From: a virus
Strand: one strand, 5' to 3'
Virus record (IMG/VR): IMGVR_UViG_3300035670_001027
Span: 1 to 28,191 of that record
Length of the DNA: 28,191 nt
Positions 2,532 to 17,660 of the stretch are shown here, one piece after another. The notes under the pieces were generated by a model. It worked only from the letters and a program-made list of their open reading frames with translations. It ran no database searches and was not told where the DNA came from. Numbering within the stretch: the first letter of the stretch is position 1; the number at the start of each line of letters is the position of its first letter. The position numbers were made by a program, and so were the translations under genes.

Positions 2532-3917
2532 ATGGGATGCTTTGGCAAATGCGGATGTGTTGAATGCTGCTTAACCGAAGCGGAAATGGCAGAAATCGCT
2601 TCAAGCGTTCGTGTTCAGCATCCGAGATACGATTCCATTGTCCCTTTTGATTCCGAGGCTTGCTGCAACACGGCCCAGGCTGGCGATACGCTTGGTGAGT
2701 TTTCATACTACTGTGTTACGACAAACACGCTGACGACAGATGAATCAATCTCGATTGCTTCGCTAATGTATAAAACGAAGAAGGTATCAGCGTCTCCACC
2801 GATAACAACCTGCGAAGAGCCTGACTATCCATTGGTCGATTTCGGTGATGTTTGCAGCGACGTTGTCACCTGCGGCAACGTAACGAAGACCTATAATGAA
2901 GTGCGAAAGGTTGCCGGATTTGTTGCGTGGACTTACGGACGCACTAGGGTTAGCGTTATCAAGAGGCTAGTAGTTTGCAACGAAGGAGCCGAGCCCGCTT
3001 GCAAGTTTATTGTAGAGTGTGCCGTTGAGGTTATTTATCAATTAGGTGCACTTGAAAAAATTGCAACGACAAAAAACGCGACTCTTTCCGGTCAAAGTGA
3101 TTGTTGCATCCTAGGGCAGGGATACGATCCAAACAGCGGATTCCCTCCGCTTCTCGTGCCTGCGGGCGAACAATGCTTTTGGAATCAAACGCAATCACCG
3201 CCAAGTTTCGATTGCACTACCGACGCGGAAGATGTTGCATGGGGCGCAACAGCTACAGTGTGGATTCGCAAGATTCGCGTATACGATAACGCCGACGATA
3301 TACCGAGCACAATTACGTTTGGCAATGGAGACACTAACACATGCATCTACGATCCTTGCCAAGCAAGCGAAGGCAGCCTTTGCATTGCAATAGGTGGCGA
3401 TGACATTCCAGCAAATCAAGGCGGTAATATTGTAACCGTGCCCATAACTACAAACTGCGGATACTGCTTTAGCTTTGGTAGAGAGTGCGAAGACTGCCCC
3501 GAAGCAATAGGTAACTATTGCCCTTGCGAGCCGAACTTGCCAAGAATTGATTCAAACAGCGGTATTGCCTTCGGGATGGATTCGTTCTCGTATGTAAACA
3601 ACCCTTGGAAGGTCGACAACTCAGTTTGCCACACGATCAGCATTGACAACATCGGAGCGTTTCGATGGTTTACTGACTGCCCCGACTGCATCGACCATCC
3701 GCTAGGGTATCCTGGAACTGGTGTACCAGAGGAAGAGCGAAACGACTGTAATTGGTGGGATTGTTATCGATGCGTCGACGGATGGGATCCGGTTATAGAT
3801 GTTCACCAACAGAAGCAAAGCAACGTGACCGCGTACACTTTCTACAGTACGTCGGTGCCCTATGAAGAACTTTATTGCATACCGTTTCCGACTGTAACAA
3901 TTACACTCAATCCGTAA
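2532..3917 (+). CDS. Cysteine-rich virion-type protein (34 Cys in 461 residues)
   Basis: This 461-residue protein contains 34 cysteines, about 7 percent, far above every neighbour. They occur as CC pairs (residues 12-13, 43-44 and about 190), CxC (CGC, CPC) and CxxC (CEDC, CPDC) motifs, densest at the extreme N-terminus (MGCFGKCGCVECC) and in the last 150 residues. No signal peptide is visible. Aromatic, Asp and Gly-rich segments near the C-terminus (NDCNWWDCYRC) look like a disulfide- or metal-stabilised surface domain. It lies in the tail module between small structural-type genes, so a tail-tip or receptor-binding role is possible. I do not recognise a named family. The next gene has an ERV/ALR-like sulfhydryl-oxidase motif, which may be related to its cysteines. 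Confidence 0.8.
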   Translation: MGCFGKCGCVECCLTEAEMAEIASSVRVQHPRYDSIVPFDSEACCNTAQAGDTLGEFSYYCVTTNTLTTDESISIASLMYKTKKVSASPPITTCEEPDYPLVDFGDVCSDVVTCGNVTKTYNEVRKVAGFVAWTYGRTRVSVIKRLVVCNEGAEPACKFIVECAVEVIYQLGALEKIATTKNATLSGQSDCCILGQGYDPNSGFPPLLVPAGEQCFWNQTQSPPSFDCTTDAEDVAWGATATVWIRKIRVYDNADDIPSTITFGNGDTNTCIYDPCQASEGSLCIAIGGDDIPANQGGNIVTVPITTNCGYCFSFGRECEDCPEAIGNYCPCEPNLPRIDSNSGIAFGMDSFSYVNNPWKVDNSVCHTISIDNIGAFRWFTDCPDCIDHPLGYPGTGVPEEERNDCNWWDCYRCVDGWDPVIDVHQQKQSNVTAYTFYSTSVPYEELYCIPFPTVTITLNP

Positions 3918-3921
3918 TCAA

Positions 3922-4341
3922 ATGATCGTTGCATTTAAACCTTTGGAATCTCTAGGAAAACAGCCACAAGACCAGCGAGCGGAAACCGTTGTGCCTAAAT
4001 TCCAACAAGTCGACTACAACGCACGTATTGAGGAACGCAAGGCTAAGCAAGGCCGCTTCGCATGGTCTAAGAAGCACGGCTACCTAGGATGCGATCCGCA
4101 ATGGCACGAACTTTGGGTGTTACTCATCCCAGCCTTTGGTTGCAGTTGTAAGCAAGACTTCGCCGACTATTGCAAAGACAACCCGCCTGACTTCTCATCG
4201 CCAAACGCCTATTGGCTTTGGGGCTACAATCTACACAACTGGGTAAACCGCAAACTCGGCAAGACCGAGTTGACCGTTGAAGAGGCATTAGCAATTTGGA
4301 GGCGGGAAGATGGCACGAAGCAAGGCGAGGGAATGGGCTGA
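3922..4341 (+). CDS. ERV/ALR-like protein with degenerate redox centre
   Basis: A 139-residue protein. Residues 73-114 read like the second half of an ERV/ALR sulfhydryl oxidase: a cysteine motif at 74-76 (CSC), a helix KQDFADYCKDNPP, a tryptophan pair near 98-100, then HNWVNRKLGK at 105-114. HNxVNxKLGK is the FAD-contacting signature of ALR/Erv1. The usual catalytic CxxC is here CxC, and the structural Cys of the WLC motif is replaced (WGY). Only about 11 residues separate WHELW from CSC, against roughly 30 in true ALR proteins. I infer a related or mimicking fold, with oxidase activity doubtful. It overlaps the next gene by 32 bases and follows the cysteine-rich gene. The gene is convincing; the function is not settled. 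Confidence 0.7.
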   Translation: MIVAFKPLESLGKQPQDQRAETVVPKFQQVDYNARIEERKAKQGRFAWSKKHGYLGCDPQWHELWVLLIPAFGCSCKQDFADYCKDNPPDFSSPNAYWLWGYNLHNWVNRKLGKTELTVEEALAIWRREDGTKQGEGMG

Positions 4342-5647: not shown

Positions 5648-5715
5648 TTTTTGACCGAAAACTACTAATTTTTGAAATTAGTAGTCTTGCAATGCTAAGC
5701 GGTTGCCGATAATAT
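5648..5715 (+). promoter_or_regulatory. Sigma70-type promoter P1 with a perfect 11-bp palindrome upstream
   Basis: TTGCAA (5687-5692), a 17-base spacer and TAATAT (5710-5715) form a good vegetative promoter. A perfect inverted repeat, ACTACTAATTT (5661-5671) and AAATTAGTAGT (5675-5685) with a TTG loop, abuts the -35 box. It may be an operator or an activator site. Further upstream is an imperfect palindrome, TTTTGACCGAAAA (about 5649-5660). A short CAATG-TTTT-CATTG hairpin (5623-5636) follows the previous gene. The 19 bases at 5675-5693 recur exactly at the second promoter. Confidence 0.75.
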
Positions 5716-5767
5716 TCTTGCATCAGAAGCAAGTGCTTCTAAAGTTTTCTTCACGAGGGTTAGGCAG

Positions 5768-5977: not shown

Positions 5978-6392
5978 GAAGCAAAGCAATGGCCGTGGGT
6001 CGGAAGACCTGCGGCCAGTGGCGAGGAAGAGACGCACGTTCGAGGAAAAGAAAAAATGGATTCTAGAGCGACTTGATTGCAAGTGGGATCTGGAGTTACG
6101 GACTACCGTCAGGGGTCATCACGCACCGATAATCTGCTCTAGCGACGAAGAGGATGAAGAAGCTTGGCATGCTGAATTTGGCGGTTTCAGAAAGTATTAC
6201 ATGATGGGCAATCAAGTTTCCCCTGATTTCGCAAGAACGCTACGGTTAATGTGGGAGCAAAAAATACTGCTCAGGCGTACGCTCGGAAATCAGGGAGCTA
6301 GAGAGGGAGGCTACGCACAAAAGACTTATTGCGTTGTGTACTCGTCAAAAAAACATCACTACGAAGCGAAACTACTTCGCGGCGAGAAATAA
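5970..6392 (+). CDS. Hypothetical basic protein
   Basis: A 140-residue protein whose ATG lies 8 bases inside the preceding gene. The N-terminal 50 residues are highly basic (MAKKQSNGRG, VARKRRTFEEKKK), which suggests nucleic-acid binding. The middle has an acidic patch SSDEEDEE near residue 57 and the end is again basic. There are three cysteines without a paired zinc motif. I do not recognise a family. It shares the P1 transcript with the 69-residue gene and is followed by a hairpin and the second promoter. Confidence 0.7.
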   Translation: MAKKQSNGRGSEDLRPVARKRRTFEEKKKWILERLDCKWDLELRTTVRGHHAPIICSSDEEDEEAWHAEFGGFRKYYMMGNQVSPDFARTLRLMWEQKILLRRTLGNQGAREGGYAQKTYCVVYSSKKHHYEAKLLRGEK

Positions 6393-6441: not shown

Positions 6442-6490
6442 AATTTTATAAATTAGTAGTCTTGCAATCAATGCAAGCGGTCGATAATCT
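6442..6490 (+). promoter_or_regulatory. Sigma70-type promoter P2, paralogous to P1
   Basis: TTGCAA (6462-6467), 17-base spacer, TAATCT (6485-6490). The 19 bases at 6450-6468 (AAATTAGTAGTCTTGCAAT) are identical to 5675-5693 at P1, and the spacers share AAGCGGT and CGATAAT. The left arm of the P1 palindrome has decayed here; only AATTT-TAT-AAATT (6442-6454) still pairs. A near-palindrome TTTTCGATCAAAA lies at about 6424-6436. Confidence 0.7.
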
Positions 6491-6543
6491 TAGTACATCG
6501 CTAGCACGTCGCTAGCAAGTTTCTCAAGTAAAGGGTTAAGCAA

Positions 6544-6714
6544 ATGGCAGCGATTTACGCAAGTTTATTCAACGGTGATTCCAAGCCTCTGAGCAAAGAG
6601 CAGCAAAAGGAATACGATAAGTTCACAAGGCAAGCTCAAAAGCTTGTAGACGCAATGACAGATGAGCAAAAGCTCGAAGAGTTTGCGAAACTGATGAGCG
6701 ATACAACCAACTGA
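6544..6714 (+). CDS. Hypothetical 56-residue protein behind promoter P2
   Basis: A short ORF starting at ATG 6544 behind AAAGGGTTAAG, the same leader type as the first gene behind P1. The product starts MAAIYASLFNGDSKPLSKEQ and is mostly amphipathic helix, rich in Lys, Glu and Gln, with no cysteine or tryptophan. I do not recognise a family. Promoter, ribosome site and the lack of any other ORF in this stretch support it as a gene. A hairpin follows about 20 bases after the stop. Confidence 0.6.
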   Translation: MAAIYASLFNGDSKPLSKEQQKEYDKFTRQAQKLVDAMTDEQKLEEFAKLMSDTTN

Positions 6715-6732
6715 CGAGCCGGGAACGGCGAA

Positions 6733-6760
6733 ACCGCGAAAGCGGTCTTGGTTTTAGTCT
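6733..6760 (+). terminator. Hairpin with GNRA loop, possible weak terminator
   Basis: ACCGC (6733-6737) and GCGGT (6742-6746) pair around a GAAA tetraloop, followed by CTTGGTTTTAGTCTTT. The same CCGC-GAAA-GCGG hairpin occurs at 11659-11670 after another gene. The T tract is interrupted, so it may instead be an RNA-stabilising hairpin. Confidence 0.4.
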
Positions 6761-6784
6761 TTAGTTTTCTTGGGAGGTAATGCG

Positions 6785-11658: not shown

Positions 11659-11737
11659 CCGCGAAAGCGGCCAGGAGCGGCAACTGCTGAAGTTGCGAGG
11701 CGGCAACTGCCTACATGCTAACAGCATCGAAGTTGCG
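11659..11737 (+). other. Tandem hairpin array before tRNA-like gene
   Basis: Directly after the secreted-protein stop lie three hairpins: CCGC-GAAA-GCGG (11659-11670), GCAACT-GCTGA-AGTTGC (about 11680-11696) and a nested one with the same GCAACT/AGTTGC outer stem (about 11703-11736) around ATGCT-AAC-AGCAT. The segments GCGGCAACTGC and GAAGTTGCGAGG each occur twice. The last GG of the second copy is the 5' end of the tRNA-like acceptor stem. This could be a processing leader or terminator cluster. Confidence 0.65.
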
Positions 11738-11738
11738 A

Positions 11739-11811
11739 GGATCGGTCGTCTAGTGGACTAGGACGCACTGCGGGACGCGGTGAAACGCAGGTTCAAATCC
11801 TGCCCGATCCT
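11739..11811 (+). tRNA. tRNA-like gene with abnormal anticodon loop
   Basis: The cloverleaf is complete: acceptor GGATCGG (11739-11745) with CCGATCC (11804-11810); D stem GTCT/GGAC with A14, GG and A21; T stem GCAGG/CCTGC with loop TTCAAAT. The anticodon stem CACTG (11766-11770) pairs with CGGTG (11778-11782), but the loop is CGGGACG. U33 is replaced by G and the purine at 37 by C, and loop bases C and G can pair, closing the loop to five bases. Read in register the anticodon would be GGA (Ser), yet the short 4-base variable loop is not that of a serine tRNA. The body resembles tRNA-Glu. No CCA is encoded. Decoding function is doubtful. Confidence 0.75.
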
Positions 11812-11826
11812 TTGGAGGGTAGCGTG

Positions 11827-12027
11827 ATGCGTTTAGTTTTATTGTTGGCTTGCGTGGCAGGATGCCAAGCAAAGCCGGTTTACTACGACTTAATGGAGGT
11901 TAGGTGTGAGAGTGGATTACCAAGGCAAAGTCAGAGAAATAACGCGACTTGCTTCCGTTTTGGAGCAAAGGATCGCAAACCTGGAGCATGCATTGCGGAA
12001 GATTATCGCGCACGCAGAGAGCGTTGA
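11827..12027 (+). CDS. Small lipoprotein, overlapping the next gene out of frame (tentative)
   Basis: ATG 11827 lies behind GGAGGG (11814-11819). The product starts MRLVLLLACVAGCQAK, with a lipobox (VAGC) at residues 10-13, so Cys13 would be lipidated and the mature part periplasmic. The 66-residue frame runs 122 bases into the next gene in a different frame. The overlapping part could be the fortuitous continuation of a very short lipoprotein, or a genuine overprint as seen for Rz1-type spanins, but no Rz partner is here. The signal peptide and ribosome site are the main support. Confidence 0.5.
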   Translation: MRLVLLLACVAGCQAKPVYYDLMEVRCESGLPRQSQRNNATCFRFGAKDRKPGACIAEDYRARRER

Positions 12028-12112: not shown

Positions 12113-13213
12113 ATGAAGGTCACAGTCCAGCGAATACCGTTTTTAAAGTCGCTCGAAATCGCGGCTTCGATTGTCGCAAGCAAGCCACAAAACGAAGTGC
12201 TGAGGTATGTCAAGTTTGCTTGCGACAGCAACAGGTTTACCCTTGAGGCAACCGATAACGAGTTGGCGATTTTGTGCAACGTGAAGCAATCCATACCGGA
12301 TTGCTCAAGTTACAAGGGCGGCAAAGCCCTGCTACTTCCCGCGAAGGTAATCCCAATCCTTAAAGATTGCGGCGGCGAGTCGGTTGATATTGAGGTAGAC
12401 AATCAACTGCGAATCACAACGCAATCGGGCGGCTTTACCTTGTCGATGCCCAATCCCGATGAGTTCCCAAGCGTTAAGATTGACGCGGCGGAAGGAGCGG
12501 CAGGCGTGCCAGGCGTTGCTCTTGCTGATGCGATTCGGCAAACGATCTACGCTACAGACTCGACATCAACGCGGTATCAACTCGGCGGCGTTTACTTCGA
12601 CATTGGCGAGCGGCTTACATGCGTTGCAACTGACGGAAGGCGGCTCGCTGTCTCATCCTGCCAGATTGCCGGCGAGGTAGCAGCGGTCAGCGGTATTGTG
12701 CCTATTCGCCCATTGCAAGCCGTATCACGCATTATCGCTGCGGAAGGATGCGGAGTGGACGTGATGATCGGTCACGCTTCGGCGGTGTTTGTATGCGGCG
12801 ACATATCGCTACAGACGCGATTAGTCGAGGGTAGATATCCAGACTGGCGGAAGGTTGTGCCGTCGACTGATGGAGCATCTACGCTCAAGTGCGATGCCGA
12901 AAAGTTTTTGAGCGTGGTACGCCAAGCCGCTATCGTCAATGATCAAGACAGTCGAGGCATTGACCTCGTAATCGGTAGCGGTGAACTGACAGCGACTGCA
13001 AAGACAGCCGAGGTTGGAGCGTCAAGCGTTGTGATGGGATGCGAGGCGGACACCGAAGCGAAGTTGACGGTCGATCACACGTACCTTGCCGACTTCCTTC
13101 GTTCGCTTGGTAAAGAGCAAACGGTTGAAGTTCGATACAAGCAATCAAGCGATCCGGTTGTATTGACATCCGGTGACGTTCTTGGGGTTATTATGCCAAT
13201 GGCGAGGGTGTAG
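12113..13213 (+). CDS. dnaN: DNA polymerase III beta sliding clamp (phage-encoded)
   Basis: A 366-residue protein, the normal length for bacterial beta clamp. Three tandem domains are visible. The first begins MKVTVQRIPFLKSLEIAASI and contains LEATDNELAI; the second contains CVATDGRRLAVSSCQ; the third begins about residue 250. The segment VEGRYPDWRKVVP (about residue 240) and the C-terminal VIMPMARV are hallmark clamp motifs; the MPMAR tail forms part of the peptide-binding pocket. It would encircle DNA and tether polymerases and repair proteins. Phage-encoded beta clamps are uncommon. GGAGGTTAGGT precedes the ATG. It lies with recombination and helicase genes, consistent with replication. 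Confidence 0.93.
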   Translation: MKVTVQRIPFLKSLEIAASIVASKPQNEVLRYVKFACDSNRFTLEATDNELAILCNVKQSIPDCSSYKGGKALLLPAKVIPILKDCGGESVDIEVDNQLRITTQSGGFTLSMPNPDEFPSVKIDAAEGAAGVPGVALADAIRQTIYATDSTSTRYQLGGVYFDIGERLTCVATDGRRLAVSSCQIAGEVAAVSGIVPIRPLQAVSRIIAAEGCGVDVMIGHASAVFVCGDISLQTRLVEGRYPDWRKVVPSTDGASTLKCDAEKFLSVVRQAAIVNDQDSRGIDLVIGSGELTATAKTAEVGASSVVMGCEADTEAKLTVDHTYLADFLRSLGKEQTVEVRYKQSSDPVVLTSGDVLGVIMPMARV

Positions 13214-16342: not shown

Positions 16343-17660
16343 CCGTTGCGGCGTTGACCCTGGAGAGTTGCCGGAGTGGTTGTACGACTTTCAAGCCTAT
16401 CTCGTTGAATGGGCGTTGCGTCAAGGTCGAGCAGCTATTTTTGCGGATTGCGGCATGGGTAAAACTGCGATGCAATTGGCATGGGCACAGCGGATCGTTG
16501 AGGTAACAAGCAAACCTGTTTTGATCGTTACGCCTATTGCGGTTGGCGCCCAGACAATCCAAGAGGCTGAACGATTCGGGATTACTGCGAAGCGATCCCG
16601 CGACGGTTCTTGCACTGGTGAGCGATGCGTATGGGTGACAAACTACGAGCAACTTCACAAGCTTGAACCGTCGATGTTTGCTGGCGTTGTGTGCGATGAA
16701 TCGTCAGCTATCAAAGACTTCAAGAGCGAACGAAAAGCGGTCGTCGTGGAGTTTATGCGGACGGTTCAGTATCGCTTGCTATGCACCGCAACAGCGGCCC
16801 CTAATGACTTTTGGGAGTTGGGCACGTCTAGTGAAGCATTGGGGCTACTTGGTTTCCGTGACATGATTACCAAGTTTTTCAAGCAGGAAACCAGCAAGGA
16901 CCATCACGGATGGGGCCGAACGAAATACCGTTTTCGTGGACATGCCGAGCAACCTTTTTGGTCGTGGGTTTGTTCATGGGCTAGGTCGATTCAGAATCCA
17001 AAGGATATCGGTTTCGATGGCTCTCGTTTTGTGCTGCCGCAACTCATCGAGGTCGAGCATGTTGTAAGCTCGGCAAGGTTGCGAGATGGTTTCCTGTTTT
17101 CGCTTCCTGCCCGCGACATGCAAGAGGAACGCGAAGAGCGGCGGCGTACAATGCCTGAGCGTTGCGAGATGGCAGCAAACCTAGTCCATCAACACGAAGG
17201 GGCTTCGGTTCTTTGGTGCGAACTTAACGACGAAGGAGACATGCTGGAGAAATTAGTTGCGGATTCGGTTCAGGTTAAAGGATCGACCAGCGATGACGAA
17301 AAGGAGGAGGCGTTAATTGGTTTTTCAAAGGGCGAAATTAAGCGGCTAATCATCAAGCCGAAGATTGGAGCGTGGGGACTGAATTGGCAACACTGCCATA
17401 ACGTAACCATGTTTCCTTCGCACTCGTTCGAGCAATACTATCAAGCGGTTAGGAGGTGCTACCGATTCGGACAAACGAAAGACGTTACCGTAAACATCAT
17501 CGCAAGCGAAGGCGAGCGGGGTGTTATTAAGAACTTGCATCGAAAGCAAGAGCAATCAAAAAAGATGTTTCGTGAGCTTTGCAAGCACATGAACAACGCT
17601 ATGCACATCGTTACTCAAGATTATTTCCCAGAGAGAGAAAAATTACCAACATGGCTATAA
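16299..17660 (+). CDS. SNF2-like helicase/translocase
   Basis: ATG 16299 follows GGAGG (16285-16289). The 453-residue protein has two RecA-like lobes: Walker A DCGMGKT at residues 50-56, motif Ia VLIVTPIAV at 74-82, motif II DESS at 133-136, motif III TATAAPNDFWEL at 163-174, motif V KIGAWGLNWQ at 355-364, and motif VI QAVRRCYRFGQ at 382-392. The arginine-rich QxxxRxxRxGQ is typical of SNF2 proteins. It would move along double-stranded DNA using ATP; phage SNF2 proteins may help replication or transcription. It overlaps the methyltransferase gene by 10 bases, suggesting a functional pair. The length is that of a compact core without extra domains. Confidence 0.92.
   Translation: MNYEEFIRSKSQWNNRCGVDPGELPEWLYDFQAYLVEWALRQGRAAIFADCGMGKTAMQLAWAQRIVEVTSKPVLIVTPIAVGAQTIQEAERFGITAKRSRDGSCTGERCVWVTNYEQLHKLEPSMFAGVVCDESSAIKDFKSERKAVVVEFMRTVQYRLLCTATAAPNDFWELGTSSEALGLLGFRDMITKFFKQETSKDHHGWGRTKYRFRGHAEQPFWSWVCSWARSIQNPKDIGFDGSRFVLPQLIEVEHVVSSARLRDGFLFSLPARDMQEEREERRRTMPERCEMAANLVHQHEGASVLWCELNDEGDMLEKLVADSVQVKGSTSDDEKEEALIGFSKGEIKRLIIKPKIGAWGLNWQHCHNVTMFPSHSFEQYYQAVRRCYRFGQTKDVTVNIIASEGERGVIKNLHRKQEQSKKMFRELCKHMNNAMHIVTQDYFPEREKLPTWL

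Follow-up and report, generated by a model that had tools for sequence, protein, structure and literature searches.

The tRNA-like element located at positions 11739..11811 (+ strand) of the window, i.e., the entire 28,191-base stretch of DNA from an IMG/VR virus analyzed here, appears to be one member of a large and seemingly undescribed phage family of tRNA-shaped RNAs, whose probable role is in the cutting or maturation of viral transcripts. The reading that best fits the element itself, to which we assign a probability of about 0.45, is that of a tRNA mimic that does not decode and instead serves as a processing signal for RNase P and RNase Z. The fold, the conservation, the loss of the anticodon, the exchange of interiors, the position next to a Shine-Dalgarno (SD) sequence and, in the wider family, the covariation of the elbow were computed directly; cleavage by RNase P and RNase Z, and message cutting as the purpose of the element, are what we infer.

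A tRNA-like element with a closed anticodon-position arm

The record, which is probably a fragment, encodes a tape-measure protein, exonuclease VIII-type and RecT-type recombination proteins, a dnaN-like clamp, a DnaB-like helicase, a methyltransferase and other phage genes. Among these, ARAGORN calls a tRNA-Ser(GGA) at 11738-11812 (+), and the match of 11739-11811 to Rfam RF00005 runs end to end, with 44.7 bits (cut-off 29). Together with the loop sequence, these results confirm the preliminary description of a tRNA-like gene that lacks U33. Also as described, the stems and the D- and T-loop signatures are intact, all helices being present in both the sequence and the fold: the acceptor stem GGATCGG/CCGATCC (11739-11745 with 11804-11810), the D-arm (11748-11764), the 4-nt variable loop AAAC (11783-11786) and the T-arm, GCAGG TTCAAAT CCTGC (11787-11803). 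The elbow residues are the GG of the D-loop and the TTC of the T-loop. The discriminator is U (11811), and CCA is not encoded.

The anticodon-position arm, CACTGCGGGACGCGGTG (11766-11782), departs from this pattern. Its loop, CGGGACG between CACTG and CGGTG, has G at position 33 and C at position 37, and both C32-G38 and G33-C37 are paired in the minimum-energy and centroid folds, yielding a 7-bp stem that is zipped up to a GGA triloop (11773-11775). Thus, the C/G edges of the loop pair as had been proposed, but the five-base loop expected from that pairing is reduced to a triloop by the second pair. The folding energy is -33.2 kcal/mol (z -3.35), and an equally good fold was obtained in 1 of 200 shuffles. 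Among the 143 distinct ARAGORN tRNAs of the retrieved phage contigs, 129 have U33, in a sample that is biased because many of these contigs were chosen for carrying such elements; the exceptions include the window element and its counterparts in two relatives (L011 and L017).

The element accordingly combines a cloverleaf that has canonical acceptor, D- and T-arms with the absence of a 7-nt, U33-containing loop that presents a readable anticodon. ARAGORN reads GGA as a serine anticodon, so that a working tRNA for the serine codon UCC, or for some other codon, with an unusual loop could be envisaged; given that U33 is missing, that the loop folds shut, that CCA is not encoded, that the relatives described below have no anticodon at all and that the element lacks the long variable arm typical of serine tRNAs, this explanation is scarcely credible.

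Exact pattern scans for the window D-arm with the CGGGACG loop returned no match, and the cultured-phage collection contained no DNA similar to the 7-kb neighbourhood. BLAST with the element gave short partial matches only, mostly to annotated tRNAs, among the matches listed, and 30-nt D-arm queries retrieved no clear element, the three matches inspected not being tRNA-like. Two matches of a loose descriptor scan within the window (at 11948 and 14003) were discarded as chance, largely within ORFs.

Exchange of interiors at one gene junction

The interval that holds the element opens, right after the upstream stop codon, with a tetraloop hairpin (CCGC-GAAA-GCGG, 11659..11670, +), followed by two more short hairpins of the GCAACT...AGTTGC type (within 11680..11738, +; sequence and fold). 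On the other side, an SD sequence, GGAGG (11814..11818, +), begins 2 nt past the discriminator U and precedes a small ORF (11827..12027, +) with a lipoprotein-like N-terminus (MRLVLLLACVAGCQAKPVYY...), for which a Pfam search gave no match. Next comes the gene of a phage DNA polymerase sliding clamp (dnaN-like; 12113..13213, +; PHROG 947, E 4e-54). The product of this gene was the query in scans for relatives (25 loci), as was the recT product (8 loci), and the junction was compared in 24 loci, the window and 23 relatives.

All 24 loci contain a structured element in this interval. In 21 of them (the window and 20 relatives), the element is located directly 5' of the SD sequence and start of the small lipoprotein-like gene, which itself precedes dnaN; L006, L014 and L015 differ in that an additional gene intervenes. 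The GNRA-type hairpin, C(C/T)GC-(G/A)AAA-GC(G/A)G, is found upstream in 22 loci and covaries to CTGC-GAAA-GCAG in relatives.

Not one of the 23 relatives presents an anticodon that could be decoded here, and the normal loop that would have contradicted the preliminary description is absent from them. Two of them (L011 and L017) carry the same tRNA-like element with an identical anticodon-position arm, the CGGGACG loop included, although their D- and T-loops vary, and in a third (L023) this arm is shortened, its 5-bp stem being capped by a GACG tetraloop. The contigs come from different metagenomes, the two with the very same loop from two metagenomes other than that of the window, so that the loop is explained neither by misassembly nor by the decay of one isolated copy.

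Besides these zipped tRNAs (class A), several other structures occupy the junction. The commonest, class B (L002, L003, L005-L007, L009, L014 and L018-L022), is a perfect four-arm cloverleaf of 71-72 nt without a T-loop and without an Rfam match, in which the arm CAGTCRAAGAGGGC...GCTCCGTACTGA is conserved and two arms vary in a compensatory way. In class C, the acceptor and the T-arm are kept, with 'GGCGGCGTGG...' and with an insert instead of an anticodon arm. Class D (L008, L010 and L013) has the T-loop TGCGAAT or TGCGATT. Classes A-D are all closed by GGATCG/CGATCC or a close variant, and a fifth type (L016 and L017) has its own acceptor, GGATCAT/ATGATCC. The window has a closed hairpin; inserts occur at this locus or beside it in L003, L016, L022 and L026, on the same acceptor, and several elements stand in tandem in L003, L004 and L022. 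Interiors are thus exchanged under a nearly constant closing stem.

These comparisons bear out the idea of a non-decoding tRNA mimic, since the zipped loop is kept in two relatives, the arm is closed differently in a third, and others replace the anticodon arm but keep the acceptor and the T-arm. The alternative proposal of a degenerate tRNA is not supported, given that every helix is intact and that the D-/T-loop elbow covaries across the wider family. By eye, bacterial tRNA-Glu has a similar body, D-arm, 4-nt variable loop and T-arm; the element differs from it in the zipped CGGGACG loop, the lack of U33 and the discriminator U. With the anticodon lost, the short variable loop and Glu-like D-arm could accordingly be taken for those of a decaying tRNA-Glu gene acquired by the phage. 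We consider such decay very improbable: the stems are all intact, the altered loop is conserved across metagenomes while the D- and T-loops vary, and the relatives swap in other non-decoding structures instead of losing the element.

A wider family built on the tRNA chassis

Class C is not confined to the junction locus, as follows from scans with a T-arm/acceptor pattern and two versions of the class C D-arm. For the first version, GGCGTGGTGGGAACACGC, 46 of 80 distinct matches have, in the next 240 nt, a 5-bp T-arm and then a 7-bp acceptor strand of full complementarity, compared with 0.24 in dinucleotide shuffles, the null used for D-arm matches; for the second, GGCGTGGACNNNGACACGC, a complementary acceptor and a T-arm accompany 70 of 120 distinct matches (0.2 in shuffles). 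In total, these are 116 chassis elements of phages and prophages, with a summed shuffle expectation of approximately 0.4, in a sample that was picked by sequence patterns from uncultured contigs and is therefore biased to particular D-arms and acceptors. They have 71 different self-complementary acceptors, so that it is the pairing that is kept, not the sequence. The inserts are 14-195 nt long.

Pair counting in 34 chassis elements gave 99.8% paired cells and a covariation of 0.646, compared with 0.127 in shuffled and 0.07-0.11 in slid controls. Changes on both sides were seen at the acceptor, the T-stem and the 19-56 tertiary pair; because pairing of the acceptor and T-stem was a selection criterion, the independent evidence consists of the count against the null and of the elbow. 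There, positions 18-19 of the D-loop co-vary with positions 55-56 of the T-loop, in the combinations GG/UC, AG/GC, AA/GU and AC/GG. The 18-55 pair switches from G.U to A.G in step, the match holding in 63 of 64 cases (permuted mean 34.8, maximum 49 in 10,000), and the rare AA/GU and AC/GG combinations agree with this result, although kinship among the sequences inflates such counts. The 71 self-complementary acceptors and the D-loop/T-loop covariation indicate that, in this family, the tRNA elbow is selected and the anticodon arm is free.

The free variation of acceptor sequences also disfavours a DNA-only reading of these structures as Holliday-like or attachment-site hairpins, as do the pair changes in class B, which, on the + strand, include many G-U and almost no A-C.

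The surroundings of the chassis elements are heterogeneous. No more than 21 of 115 elements are followed within 15 nt by an SD sequence and a start codon, and the next ORF may begin almost at once (about 0 nt) or more than 1000 nt away, both of which argue against processing in the wider family. The flanking genes are both co-directional with the element in 52 cases and both opposite in 6, among those with both neighbours scorable, and a survey of neighbouring genes revealed diverse neighbours and no recurring partner. CCA occurs within the first 6 nt 3' of approximately 19 of 115 chassis elements, compared with CCA at the end of 148 of 199 ARAGORN tRNAs from the same contigs.

We consider it somewhat better than an even chance that these elements make up a large class of tRNA-chassis RNAs, not described before, in environmental phages and some prophages. 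In this class, compensatory changes would preserve the acceptor, D-arm, T-arm and elbow, and the anticodon arm would be zipped or would give way to structured domains that can be exchanged. As maturation cassettes, such elements would recruit the tRNA-processing enzymes of the host, so that viral transcripts are cut or stable non-coding RNAs are set free, and the window element would be a minimal member. As to novelty, no description of such a phage class was found in the open-access journal literature searched or in Rfam 15, and no Rfam family scored above threshold for the chassis elements of the tested loci. Because tRNA finders label these elements tRNA-Ser or undetermined, a class of viral RNAs may go unnoticed in annotated phage genomes.

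Additional observations concern particular members. In four loci (L041, L162, L188 and L193), different acceptors carry a common insert, AATATCTGCATCAGG...GCCAATA, which is hairpin-like, with a possible GGCT/AGCC pseudoknot, and shows a T-A to C-G stem change in L193. Six contigs (L049, L074, L082, L101, L112 and L122) contain large-phage tRNA-like genes with normal D- and T-arms and an encoded CCA but approximately 100 extra nt in the anticodon region. In L067, the gene next after the chassis element (3350-4141) encodes a queuine tRNA-ribosyltransferase (PHROG 887). Chassis elements also occur in GTDB genomes, on Chloroflexota, Sporomusaceae and Geobacteraceae contigs (L208, L210, L215, L220 and L223) that presumably represent prophages.

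Proposed transcript processing and its alternatives

The main argument for transcript processing comes by position, from a second structure in the same phage. A type I hammerhead ribozyme (6694..6769, +) is located directly 5' of another SD sequence and ATG; it matches Rfam HH9 with 24.9 bits, below the cut-off, and has the conserved core and covarying stems. More than 10 relatives retain the core, CUGANGA...GAAA, and by inspection stems I, II and III all vary in a compensatory manner; in relatives the ribozyme lies just before the SD sequence and start of assorted genes. Two unrelated structures, the self-cleaving hammerhead and the tRNA mimic with its shape suited to tRNA-cutting enzymes, thus occupy like sites. 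Among the functions listed in the preliminary description, a processing signal fits best with this and with the SD-adjacent position, a decoy being another possibility; the cleavage itself we infer.

Under the processing reading, decoding would have been given up, and the features read by tRNA-maturing enzymes, i.e., the 7-bp acceptor, the T-arm and the D-loop/T-loop elbow, would have been kept, the anticodon-position arm being zipped in the window or swapped for another domain in relatives. Placed inside a polycistronic phage transcript, such a signal would be cut on its 5' side by host RNase P, with a protective tetraloop hairpin remaining on the upstream message. A second cut, made past the discriminator U by RNase Z or by a different 3' nuclease, would release a message that starts with UUGGAGG, so that the new 5' end would lie at the ribosome-binding site for the small lipoprotein gene and dnaN. 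RNase P and RNase Z, like the ribosome, recognise the tRNA elbow (PMC4810234), and for the two nucleases this is also documented in PMC11693755. Class B, which has no recognisable T-loop, need not be an RNase P substrate. Given that the inserts are up to 195 nt long and that some are conserved on different acceptors, the data suggest that the inserts themselves do something.

A possible but less likely alternative is that the element encodes a tRNA-shaped RNA that is free and stable and acts in trans, in which the chassis would provide maturation and stability and the anticodon-side domain would be the working part, binding a protein or RNA or serving as a decoy for tRNA-cutting defence nucleases or tRNA-binding factors. 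A trans role is consistent with the presence of chassis elements in tandem (four in L103), with the proximity (up to 1 kb) of 13 of the 116 elements to a same-strand tRNA, where 4.8 are expected, with inserts conserved on unrelated acceptors and with the lack of a recurrent neighbour gene. T4 RNA C (species 1 RNA), which would be an old example, is an annotated small stable phage RNA that, like the chassis elements, has a tRNA-like T-arm at its 3' end (CCGGG TTCGAAT CCCGG) and a long insert replacing the anticodon arm; it differs in having no recognisable chassis D-arm, poorer acceptor pairing and a location within the T4 tRNA cluster, and no sequence similarity was seen. To our knowledge, no function is known for it. 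A trans-acting RNA fits poorly with a junction element that is fixed at one spot 5' of one SD sequence and with a would-be working domain that, in the window, is a mere 7-bp hairpin with a triloop.

The same abutment on the SD sequence would also be compatible with an uncut cis leader, in which a riboswitch or protein-binding site shaped like a tRNA would set the translation of the lipoprotein/dnaN operon by freeing or hiding GGAGG. By eye, AUCC in the 3' strand of the acceptor could pair with part of the GGAGG region, although this partial complementarity is possibly due to chance, and tRNA-like folds are known in riboswitches, for example yjdF (PMC9142559). However, structurally unrelated interiors replace each other at one spot, and the neighbours in the wider family are diverse, so that no common ligand or gene is apparent; we therefore view a cis leader as quite unlikely.

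For the processing signal, the best analogue is mascRNA, which has a tRNA-like fold with a lengthened anticodon-equivalent stem and an elbow, recruits RNase P and RNase Z to process the end of a long transcript and is not aminoacylated (PMC11693755). Like the phage element, mascRNA and menRNA, the tRNA-like 3' ends of MALAT1 and MEN-beta (RF01684), combine a tRNA-like acceptor and T-arm with a longer anticodon-equivalent stem that has a compact loop, D-loop guanines in the elbow and no coding role. In contrast, mascRNA belongs to an animal long non-coding RNA, in which it marks a 3' end, and its D-arm is reduced, whereas the element in the window comes from a bacterial virus, has a full D-arm and lies 5' of a ribosome-binding site. 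The chassis element of L163 gave a sub-threshold match to RF01684 (29 bits, E 0.083).

Other comparisons are more remote. In mitochondria, tRNA structures between genes punctuate polycistronic RNA as cutting sites; those tRNAs decode, whereas decoding is lost in the phage element. The wider family resembles tmRNA in combining a tRNA-like domain with an insert that replaces the anticodon arm, but the inserts span 14-195 nt and the element in the window is too small to accommodate a tag frame; neither ARAGORN nor Rfam found a tmRNA in the window or the loci searched. As to YrlA and bacterial Y RNAs, neither the window nor any of 16 loci gave an Rfam Y RNA match at E<=1. Theta (HDV-like) ribozymes located beside phage tRNAs are self-cleaving and have been proposed to trim suppressor tRNAs (PMC10879173). 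They are likewise phage RNA elements proposed to shape RNA ends around tRNA sequences, but their proposed substrates are real tRNAs, whereas in the chassis case the tRNA-like element itself is non-decoding.

If the processing reading is correct, messages of these phages would be segmented by RNA elements of two unrelated kinds, ribozymes and tRNA mimics. If, instead, the RNAs act in trans, they would be a natural counterpart of the laboratory 'tRNA scaffold' with exchangeable RNA domains and would offer a comparative handle on T4 RNA C.

Elsewhere in the window, Rfam matches at 5979-6240 (SOX2OT) and 16850-16893 (IRE) are at chance level. Two intergenic regions, at approximately 5655-5725 and 6445-6500, share ATTAGTAGTCTTGCAAT...GCGGT(T)G/TCGATAAT, possibly a promoter or regulatory repeat.
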